From Bordetella genomosp. 12 (GTDB taxonomy: Bacteria; Pseudomonadota; Gammaproteobacteria; Burkholderiales; Burkholderiaceae_B), in the NCBI RefSeq assembly GCF_002261355.1, contig NZ_NEVU01000002.1, positions 992,001 through 1,056,000 of the forward strand: DNA of 64,000 nucleotides, in the 5' to 3' direction. Below the pieces are notes generated by a model. It was not told where the DNA came from. It made no database searches and worked only from the letters and a program-made list of their open reading frames with translations. Positions 29,886-60,625 of the stretch are shown here, one piece after another (the stretch's first letter is position 1; each line of letters opens with the position of its first letter). A program made the position numbers and the translations under genes.

Positions 29886-30995
29886 TCAATCCTCATCGAG
29901 CAGGCGGGCCGCCTTGGACGAGGCCGCCGCGCCGGCACGGTGGTAATGCATGACGGTCGCGACGCTGGCGTGACCGCTCATCGCCATGACCTCGGCCAAA
30001 GGCAAGCCCTGCCGGCCGGCTTCGGTGATGAAACCCGCCCGCAGGCTGTGCGCGGCAAAATCGCCCTGCAGACCCGCCTGGCGGGCCCGCGCCTGCACCA
30101 TGCGGCGCAGGGCCTCGGCGCCCAAGGCTTCCCCCACGATGCCGCCGCGCCGCACACGACGAAACAACGCACCCTCGGTGATACCGGCGGCCTCCAGCCA
30201 GGCGGACAAGGCCTGCGCGGCCCGGCCGGCCACCGGTTTGTGGATGTCGGGACGGGCGCGGCCTTCCTGATTCGTTTTCGAATGCGCCAGCGTATAGAGA
30301 TAGCCGTCCGGGGTGCGCCGCGTGTTCTCCAATGTGGCGGCCACGACTTCCGAGCGGCGGCGTCCGCCGCTGGCCCAGGCGAACAACAGCATGGCGCGGT
30401 CGCGCAACCCGATCAGACTGTCGTCGCAGGTCGCCAGCAATTGCTCGAGCGGCTCGCGGGTGAGGGCGTCTTTACCCTGAGGCAGATCGCCGCGCCGGGC
30501 ATAAGCCGCGCGGCTGCGTTTCATGAGCGCGCGCACGGCGCGATCGCGGCAGGGGTTGGGCAGCCCTTGGGTTTCATGGGCCTCGGACAACACGGCCAGC
30601 CGATGACGCACCGTGGACAGTTTCAATGGGCCAGGCGTTCGCTTCATGCCCGTGGCAAGCAGCTGCTCATCGACCGCCGCGGGCAAATCGTGCGTCAGCC
30701 CGTGAGGGCCATGGTGTTGCAGGTGGTCCGCGATGAACTGCAGGACCGTGGCGACGGGCAAGGGCAGGGCCATGGGGCGCGCGAGCCGCAGCGCGTGCCA
30801 CGCGGCCCAATAGCGGATGGCCGAGCGATATGCCGCGCGGGTATTGGGCGAACTGCCTTCGCGCAGCAGCGCACGCAGCGACTCGGCGCTCGCGCCCAGC
30901 ATGTCCAGGTGCTGTCCCAACGACGTTTGAAGCGGCACATCCCCCGCTGCCGCGGCCGGATCAGCACGCTGAGGCTTGGAAATGTTATAAATCAT
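29886..30995 (-). CDS. Tyrosine recombinase (TnpS/XerC-like integrase)
   Basis: This 369-residue site-specific recombinase has an N-terminal SAM-like DNA-binding domain (about 30-145, NTRAAYRSAIRYWAAWHALR). The C-terminal catalytic domain has all expected residues: Arg213 in GGRRRSEVV, Lys240 in AHSKTN, His316 and Arg319 in AAHSLRAGF, His342 in SGHASVATV and nucleophile Tyr351 in MHYHR. It is divergent from a KfrA-like coiled-coil gene, with a 13-7-13 bp palindrome between them. That layout equals the TnpS-rst-TnpT cointegrate resolution modules of Tn4651-type Tn3 transposons. It is not a phage integrase by context: no phage or attachment-site duplication is seen. No transposase is in the window. 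Confidence 0.88.
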   Translation of the reverse strand: MIYNISKPQRADPAAAAGDVPLQTSLGQHLDMLGASAESLRALLREGSSPNTRAAYRSAIRYWAAWHALRLARPMALPLPVATVLQFIADHLQHHGPHGLTHDLPAAVDEQLLATGMKRTPGPLKLSTVRHRLAVLSEAHETQGLPNPCRDRAVRALMKRSRAAYARRGDLPQGKDALTREPLEQLLATCDDSLIGLRDRAMLLFAWASGGRRRSEVVAATLENTRRTPDGYLYTLAHSKTNQEGRARPDIHKPVAGRAAQALSAWLEAAGITEGALFRRVRRGGIVGEALGAEALRRMVQARARQAGLQGDFAAHSLRAGFITEAGRQGLPLAEVMAMSGHASVATVMHYHRAGAAASSKAARLLDED

Positions 30996-31031
30996 ATGTA
31001 GTATGTATGAATAAATACTTTGTTGATTATT

Positions 31032-31064
31032 TTAGCGCGGATAAACATCTATTATCCGCGCTAA
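31032..31064. promoter_or_regulatory. 33-bp perfect palindrome, candidate recombination core or KfrA operator
   Basis: Perfect 13-base inverted arms TTAGCGCGGATAA (31032-31044) and TTATCCGCGCTAA (31052-31064) flank a 7-base asymmetric spacer ACATCTA. It lies 36 bases from the recombinase start and 51 from the KfrA-like start. Arms of 11-13 bases around a 6-8 base spacer are the geometry of tyrosine-recombinase crossover sites such as loxP, FRT and dif. KfrA proteins also bind inverted repeats in their own promoters, so it could serve as operator, core site, or both. Confidence 0.7.
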
Positions 31065-31115
31065 TTCGGCGCGGCGGCCAAGATGCCGCGTTTTGGTTGA
31101 GGCAAGAGGCGAAAA

Positions 31116-32114
31116 ATGGCTATCGGAATTCAGCAGCAGGATGTTTGGGCGGCGGCGGATGCCTTGCTGCGCGCGGGGGAGCAACCCACGATAGAAAGGG
31201 TGCGCTCGCACCTGGGCCGGGGGTCGCCCAACACCGTGGGGCCGCACCTGAAAGCCTGGTTGCGCGAGCTGGGCGGGCGCTTGGATCAGGGCGAGCCGCC
31301 CGATGCGGTGATGTCGGCGGCCCAGGCTCTTTGGCAGGAGGCGGTGTCGCAGGCTCAGGGCGAGGCGGCCGCGCAGATGGCACAAACCCGGCAAGCCCTG
31401 CAGGCCGAGCAGGAGGCCCTGGACGCGGAGCGCCAGGCGCTTGCCCAGGCGCAGGCGCGCCTGCAGCAACGGGAGGCGGATCTGGAGGCTGCCGTGAAGG
31501 CGGCGCAGGCGCTGGCCGACGCCGCGCAGGCACGGGCGCAGTCCCTGCAAGGGCGGCTCGACGCGGCGCTGGGTGAGCGGGACGCGCTGCGTCAGGCGCT
31601 GGAGCAGGCGCGCCAACAGGCGCAACAGGCCGAGCGGCAGGGCAGGGACGCGCTGGCCGAGGCTCAGCAGGCGCACCAGGCGGCCCTGGCGCAGGCCGAG
31701 GCTCGCCATGCCAGCCACGAACGGCGTTGGCTGATGGATATCGACGCCCAGCGTCAGGTGGCGCGGCGCTTGCAAGAAGAGCGGGACGCCGGCGCGCGCC
31801 AACTCGCGGCGCGCGAGCAGGCGCATGCGCAAGTCCTGCTCTCGCGGGATGAGGAGGCCCGCGCCGAGGCCGAACGGCTGGCGGCCGCCACGGCGGCGGC
31901 GCGCGAGGCGCAGGCGGCCCAGGCGCAGTGGCAGGCCATGGCCGAGGCCGGGCAGCGCGCCCTGGCCATGCGTGAAGAGGCCCTGGCTCAGCGTCACGCC
32001 GATATCGAAGCGCATGCGGCGCAGTTGCGCGCGCAGCTTGCCGTCAAGGATGAGCAGATCGCCGGCCTGCTAGCGGCCACGCGCACCAAGGGCAGGGCTG
32101 CCCGGCCGGCCTGA
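31116..32114 (+). CDS. KfrA-like DNA-binding coiled-coil protein (TnpT-like)
   Basis: This 332-residue protein has an N-terminal KfrA-type DNA-binding domain (about 1-115). Its typical segment is VWAAADALLRAGEQPTIERV then RSHLGRGSPNTVGPHLKAWL. A very long Ala/Gln/Glu-rich alpha-helical coiled coil follows from about residue 85 to the end. KfrA is a plasmid regulator and segregation accessory; the same architecture occurs in TnpT, the partner that stimulates TnpS-mediated cointegrate resolution. The divergent tyrosine recombinase and the intervening palindrome favour the TnpT role. AAGAGG upstream of ATG 31116 serves as ribosome-binding site. Confidence 0.85.
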   Translation: MAIGIQQQDVWAAADALLRAGEQPTIERVRSHLGRGSPNTVGPHLKAWLRELGGRLDQGEPPDAVMSAAQALWQEAVSQAQGEAAAQMAQTRQALQAEQEALDAERQALAQAQARLQQREADLEAAVKAAQALADAAQARAQSLQGRLDAALGERDALRQALEQARQQAQQAERQGRDALAEAQQAHQAALAQAEARHASHERRWLMDIDAQRQVARRLQEERDAGARQLAAREQAHAQVLLSRDEEARAEAERLAAATAAAREAQAAQAQWQAMAEAGQRALAMREEALAQRHADIEAHAAQLRAQLAVKDEQIAGLLAATRTKGRAARPA

Positions 32115-60236: not shown

Positions 60237-60625
60237 GCCCGGATAATATCCCCCCGGGGAGGATATGGCGCGATAGACCCTGGCGAGCGCAAGGGTTTGA
60301 TGTACATACGATACTTTACATAATATACATTATGCGTATTTCGTATGGAAGGGGTTCGGGATTGGGCTTTCTACGGCTTGATGCACCCACGGCAACCGGA
60401 TTTGGGCCCCGGGATGCATGGCCGATGGGTTCGGTTTGCGGCCGCGGATCACCTCCAGATCTCCACGCGGTGATCGCCGGCATGCCGCGCCCGAACCGGA
60501 ATGCCGCGCGCTGCGCGCGAGTATCCCGGCCGGTCTGACGTCAAGCGTGGCCGCGCTGCCGGCTTGCCGTGCACAGGACGAGGCGAGCGGCGGCTGGCTC
60601 GCCGCTCATCTGCCCTGCTCTGCCT
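60237..60625. other. 389-base spacer with an AT-rich dyad
   Basis: Besides the RcnR operator, this holds an AT-rich island at 60297-60347. It has nested dyads (CATACGA with TCGTATG; CATAAT-ATAC-ATTATG) and a plausible plus-strand promoter (TTGATG, 18-base gap, TAATAT). It also has a GATCACC/GGTGATC pair at 60447-60475. The only frame after the promoter (60332-60538, 68 codons) shows no recognisable fold. I see no definite gene here. Confidence 0.5.
60246..60266. promoter_or_regulatory. Candidate RcnR/CsoR-type operator
   Basis: A near-perfect palindrome (ATATCC, then CCCCGGGG, then A and GGATAT) with an uninterrupted run of C then G is typical of sites for this repressor family. It sits 10 bases upstream of the repressor start codon. 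Confidence 0.65.

Follow-up and report, generated by a model that had tools for sequence, protein, structure and literature searches.

A Cre-like tyrosine recombinase, a KfrA-like protein and a 33-bp palindromic site form a conserved, dif-linked module in Bordetella and related bacteria

Introduction

The resolution of chromosome dimers in bacteria is usually described in terms of one Xer system per chromosome. The phage-plasmid P1 resolves plasmid dimers by means of Cre, which acts at loxP, a site with a spacer of 8 bp. XerS/difSL and XerH/difH each consist of a single recombinase that is linked to its own terminus site, a linkage that for XerH holds in most species of its group (PMC5357621, PMC2731167). 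A further arrangement is that of Tn4651, a transposon of the Tn3 family, in which the core inverted repeat and the accessory palindrome of rst lie between the divergent genes for TnpS and TnpT (PMC7157771, PMC4619425).

The module described here was found in Bordetella genomosp. 12, in a stretch of 64,000 nucleotides (hereafter the window). Like TnpS/TnpT/rst of Tn4651, it combines divergent genes for a tyrosine recombinase and a KfrA_N coiled-coil protein with a core repeat and an accessory site between them; unlike Tn4651, it has no tnpA nearby, is linked to dif and broadly tracks its hosts. The module resembles Cre/loxP in the 13-bp arms and the asymmetric spacer, and Cre has the closest solved structure, but the spacer is 7 bp long, there are a KfrA-type partner and an accessory element, and the location is chromosomal and near dif. 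With XerCD/dif it shares tyrosine recombination at the replication terminus, which for the module is predicted from the sequence, whereas the enzymes and the site are separate ones and the core has a 13-7-13 rather than an 11-6-11 layout. Finally, XerS/difSL and XerH/difH replace XerCD, whereas the host of the module keeps XerC, XerD and dif.

Anatomy of the module

The gene tyrR (positions 29886..30995, minus strand) encodes a Cre-like tyrosine recombinase of 369 aa, TyrR, that matches the Pfam family Phage_integrase (1.2e-17). Divergent from it is a kfrA-like gene (31116..32114, plus strand), the product of which, 332 aa in length, matches KfrA_N (1.5e-27) and contains a long Ala/Gln-rich stretch that is a coiled coil by inspection. 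The 33-bp core site located between the two genes (31032..31064) has the sequence TTAGCGCGGATAA-acatcta-TTATCCGCGCTAA, that is, a perfect 13-bp inverted repeat around an asymmetric 7-bp spacer. An A/T-rich accessory element (30983..31022), a putative binding site for the KfrA-family protein, overlaps the start of tyrR and contains columns that are conserved in relatives. Thus, the intact recombinase, the divergent KfrA_N protein and the perfect palindrome of the original prediction are all present at 29886-32114, as judged by Pfam matches, open reading frames and the sequence itself. The search for further copies of the core that had been proposed there yielded a single occurrence in the host genome, with up to 3 mismatches allowed. 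The central part of the accessory element is likewise present in a single copy in the 64-kb window, and a spread of the KfrA-like protein over the terminus was discarded for want of a second element within that stretch.

The recombinase and its relatives

The residues R213, E216, K240, H316, R319, H342 and Y351, which, going by family motifs, we take to be the catalytic set, are identical in all 114 homologues of the tree set. The solved structures nearest to the TyrR profile are Cre (8.7e-18) and, next, a XerC-like protein (1.2e-6). TyrR scores 43.9 and 39.9 bits against the NCBIfam equivalogs for XerC and XerD, far below the respective cut-offs of 335.15 and 329.6, and in this respect is unlike Xer proteins; the XerC and XerD of the host (G000) are separate, intact proteins above their own equivalog cut-offs. 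The TyrR tree, which was built by a quick method, leaves 30 of the 112 inner branches open and misplaces Advenella on a long branch, broadly follows the host families. Plasmid copies are nested at some points of the tree, and TnpS of Tn4651 falls far outside.

The Tn4651 plan to which the module had been likened is recognizable in part. In both, a tyrosine recombinase and a KfrA_N protein are divergently encoded around a core and an accessory site, TnpS and TyrR share 30% identity in an alignment of 263 columns, and TnpT also contains KfrA_N (2.6e-26); the recombinase itself, on the contrary, is far from TnpS and has Cre as its nearest solved relative. The order of the core and the accessory site may be swapped: in our own reading of the pWW0 sequence, as opposed to mapped rst sites, a palindrome adjoins tnpT, whereas the A/T element of the module is located between the core and TyrR.

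Distribution and copy number

A clear TyrR orthologue was identified in 15 of 61 genomes, namely the host, 10 of the 14 other genomes of the same genus and four from other genera of the family. In all 15, the TyrR and KfrA_N genes are divergent neighbours, and each of these genomes contains exactly one KfrA_N match. Two genomes of the same genus, G007 and G013, both 99% complete, show neither a TyrR orthologue nor a KfrA_N match; judging by their sequences, the module has been lost or was never gained in these two. In a profile search, TyrR was detected in 72 of the 268 host-family genomes, in 45 of 398 genomes sampled from the C. testosteroni family (f48) and in 13 of 399 genomes sampled across the order Burkholderiales. 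The copy is single in 69 of the 72 matched host-family genomes and in 41 of the 45 matched f48 genomes. Given that the module is missing from G007, G013 and most of the sampled Burkholderiales, it has to be considered dispensable.

Two genomes of the Achromobacter group encode a second TyrR, with no kfrA found nearby (G434:C1:1675043-1676038 and G440:C1:782407-783405). In another genome, G1030, two inverted copies of the module (L164 and L165) are 100% identical over at least 5.1 kb and lie at 0.515 and 0.181 from dnaA; these twin copies may reflect recent duplication, mobility or an assembly artefact. In addition, six relatives are encoded on plasmids of 183-938 kb (L052, L053, L054, L055, L056 and L057) from Achromobacter, Variovorax, Hydrogenophaga, Xanthomonas and Pseudomonas. 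The plasmid gene pairs are annotated merely as integrase and DNA-binding protein; in five plasmids the two genes are divergent neighbours, and in L052 one extra gene separates them.

No Tn3 transposase (PF01526, DDE_Tnp_Tn3) was detected in 13 of the 15 module genomes, and the lack of tnpA noted for the window extends to the entire host genome; G010 and G011 have one match each, on a contig other than that of the module. With PF01526 absent from the contig that carries the module in all 15 genomes, an ordinary Tn3 transposon is rejected, and the transposon remnant that had been offered as one option is disfavoured.

Conservation of the core and the accessory element

The surroundings of TyrR were compared in 141 loci, which include the window, 54 stretches from the genomes of the G series, 80 named loci selected as the best of 494, and 6 plasmid loci, with some places counted twice. 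In 116 of these loci, a strict core, ATAA-N7-TTAT, occurs no more than 700 nt from TyrR, and in 25 it is absent from that range, and a KfrA-like ORF is present within 3.5 kb of TyrR in 110 and absent from that range in 31, seven of which have one farther off. The core adjoins kfrA in 106 of the 141 loci (96 distinct ones), and since such a 13-7-13 site recurs beside kfrA in all of these and occurs once in the host genome, a chance palindrome is ruled out.

In the 96 distinct loci, the core consensus is T[AT]A-N4-CGATAA, a 7-bp spacer and TTATCG-N4-TAA, in which the innermost TAA and TTA letters were preset by the search pattern. The spacer itself is constrained, with T at position 4 in 95% and C at position 5 in 79% of these loci, and the set shows a conserved accessory A/T element at -49..-10 from the core, on the TyrR side. 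One window-type core was found per genome where tested. In G467 the chromosomal spacer differs from that of the plasmid, and the two modules on one plasmid of G084 have spacers unlike each other, as would be expected if each module must recombine with itself only. Both copies in G1030 have one common spacer. In C. testosteroni NFYY023, searches up to 10 kb from TyrR revealed neither a core nor kfrA, although the gene lies at 0.500 from dnaA.

Split loci

In several Achromobacter and related genomes (L155, L086, L088, L205, L206, L209, L213 and L218), cargo of 2-30 kb is located between TyrR and the unit formed by the core and kfrA. The core is next to kfrA in all eight chromosomal split loci whose sequence stretch includes both TyrR and kfrA, 2-30 kb apart, and the accessory element is also next to kfrA in the six of these that were inspected by eye. 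The opposite case is the Achromobacter plasmid pA82, where the core stands beside TyrR and one gene separates it from kfrA.

The palindrome could, in principle, be no more than an operator that controls the two divergent promoters, as might be suggested by its location between the two genes, beside the kfrA start codons. This seems very improbable given the 13-7-13 geometry with its conserved asymmetric spacer, and a core that stays with kfrA when TyrR is split off does not behave as a site that serves only as an operator of TyrR; the linkage to dif described below would, moreover, be left unexplained.

A landing or cargo-capture site, at which circular DNA with a matching core would integrate at the terminus, might be suspected from the cargo itself, which in one case (L209) contains DUF899, transporter, PALP and Sel1-repeat genes. 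Nevertheless, the odds appear to be heavily against this possibility: there is one good core per split locus, and no cores flanking the cargo were found in the DNA stretches searched, from which degenerate copies could escape; furthermore, the plasmid and chromosomal spacers of G467 differ. For plasmid integration or switching, also put forward originally, the single window-type core per genome tested and the single good core per split locus leave little support.

Linkage to dif

The window contains a 26-bp XerCD dif site (60313..60338, minus strand), 29 kb from the module, that agrees at 25 of 26 positions with the published dif of B. pertussis (PMC2731167). The polarity of the KOPS-like GGGNAGGG motif flips at this site, with 33 forward and 1 reverse occurrences in the 100 kb sampled before it and 1 forward and 10 reverse occurrences in the 64 kb sampled after it.

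A first dif pattern gave 22 matches in 20 of 31 genomes, with none in the 11 genomes of f48, and two of these matches, in G449 (on another contig) and G508 (a poor second match), were dropped by eye; the same pattern read backward gave 4 matches in the 31 genomes. The 20 genomes in which dif was mapped contain 21 copies of TyrR, every one of them situated at a distance of 6-133 kb from the site; for the 19 genomes of known length, this amounts to no more than 2.1% of the chromosome. The control consisted of 147 of the listed matches from 19 complete genomes, leaving out three on other contigs, with the two best matches per genome taken as Xer-like by rank only. Among these, 0 of 89 other tyrosine recombinases are located within 150 kb or within 300 kb of dif, and 0 of 38 Xer-like matches within 150 kb. 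The avoidance of the dif region by the other tyrosine recombinases listed, up to 300 kb, is a pattern of its own, and the same count rules out that integrases in general accumulate at the terminus.

Among the 11 genomes of f48, dif was located at 1.3, 1.3, 1.3, 2.1, 10.6 and 16.2 kb from TyrR in six and was not found within about 20 kb on either side of the module in the other five. One of the mapped genomes is probably that of R. ferrireducens DSM 15236, and its dif falls in the same place as the one published for that strain. In G759 (0.418) and G890 (0.596), the module is not opposite dnaA, yet dif is 1.3 and 2.1 kb away. Of the named loci, which are the 80 best among 494, 69 have a flank of at least 3 kb; a search of these up to 10 kb on the kfrA side located dif in 18 and did not find it in 51. 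On the TyrR side, dif was found in none of the 80. A Markov sequence of 7.2 Mb contained no dif site by chance. The linkage is tightest in nine loci of Acidovorax, Polaromonas and Rhodoferax, with dif 51-841 bp behind the kfrA stop codon. One locus, L084, has two dif-like sites, at least one of which is presumably false. A further dif expression gave no site near the modules of Pandoraea or Cupriavidus, and this same expression also missed sites that had been found before.

The orientation of the module relative to dif is fixed. In all 45 mapped copies (21 + 6 + 18), transcription of TyrR leads away from dif, and kfrA is on the dif side in the mapped loci wherever it was found. In G509, the module is located across dif from its usual side with the direction reversed, and the second TyrR of G434, found across dif at a distance of 38 kb, likewise faces away from the site; hence, in both cases, switching of the side is accompanied by reversal of the gene, so that the direction relative to dif is kept. 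Because shared ancestry inflates such counts and the genomes are not independent, the 44 dif-mapped genomes were also grouped by neighbourhood, which gave 23 groups on the TyrR side, 24 on the kfrA side and 14 when similarity on either side sufficed to join them, by a crude ORF comparison that may over-split short flanks.

The chromosomal copies away from the terminus, by distance from dnaA, are those of G866 (0.124), where no kfrA-like ORF was found near TyrR, and G690 (0.63), along with the second copy of G1030 (0.181). Apart from these and the plasmid copies, the site of the module in the genomes mapped is at the replication terminus, and the recombinase gene is linked there to its own site, with the core 2-30 kb off in some genomes. 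The chromosomal role that had been envisaged for the module is thus supported, by the linkage to dif, in the form of a role at the terminus.

MatP uses many sites. An activity of this kind, with the KfrA-like protein as the main actor that organizes the terminus by binding DNA, MatP-like in role, and TyrR as a secondary component, would fit with kfrA facing dif and remaining together with the accessory element when cargo splits off TyrR. This interpretation is nonetheless improbable: the accessory element has a single match in the 64-kb window, as against the many sites of MatP, and the active site of TyrR and the core are conserved as well.

A more serious alternative, even if an unlikely one, is that a resolution module of the plasmid or transposon type, TnpS/TnpT- or Cre-like, entered near dif, for example via an element that uses Xer, and persists as a selfish or stabilizing passenger that has no role in the host. 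The close relatives on plasmids of Achromobacter, Variovorax, Hydrogenophaga, Xanthomonas and Pseudomonas, the location of the module directly beside dif in several Comamonadaceae and the duplicated copy in G1030 are all compatible with such an origin. However, the absence of dif from the TyrR side in the 80 named loci, the best of 494, implies that there is no flanking pair of dif sites, and no Tn3 tnpA is found on the module's contig in any of the 15 genomes. Moreover, the catalytic residues and the core are kept over family-level divergence, and the linkage to dif and the orientation persist while many neighbours change. As far as can be judged from the sequences, the module is not a remnant but a conserved, dif-linked, putative recombination system.

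A proposed function at the terminus

The anatomy of the module, its conservation, its mostly single copy, its linkage to dif in fixed orientation and the intact XerCD of the host define the setting in which a function has to be sought. The interpretation that we favour, and consider probable with modest confidence, is that the module is a replicon-specific recombination system of the Cre or TnpS/TnpT kind that is located at the terminus and acts on sister chromosomes next to XerCD-dif. TyrR would bind to both arms of the core, each of 13 bp, and exchange strands across the 7-bp spacer, and the KfrA-like protein, bound to the A/T element, might be an accessory factor that makes recombination selective, by analogy with the part that TnpT is likely to play for TnpS. 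Since each chromosome was found to contain one core, this site would naturally pair with that of the sister or of the second half of a dimer. Such a reaction could resolve chromosome dimers or unlink sister termini, beside XerCD-dif or as a back-up for it. At division, dif is held at the septum, and placement near dif would supply co-location there. A point against this proposal is that XerC, XerD and dif are all present in the host, which leaves no obvious gap to fill.

By extension, many Alcaligenaceae and Comamonadaceae might run two independent terminus systems, XerCD-dif and TyrR-KfrA with its own 33-bp site, the second one being an active route of dimer resolution or unlinking, FtsK-independent or differently controlled, that was derived from plasmid biology and is fixed in its orientation to dif; we would put the chances of this extension at about even. 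The titles and abstract beginnings of the open-access PMC matches listed contain no description of a dif-linked system of this kind, and to the extent of these literature matches, the arrangement is new on chromosomes.

If the proposal is correct, bacteria can run redundant or specialized recombination at the terminus, with a recombinase of a second subfamily that acts at a site of its own and, in two families, is tied to dif in both position and direction. Resolution of the plasmid type, as represented by Cre, TnpS/TnpT and KfrA, would then be linked to chromosome segregation. A Cre-like family with many distinct sites and spacers would also be a resource for genetics.
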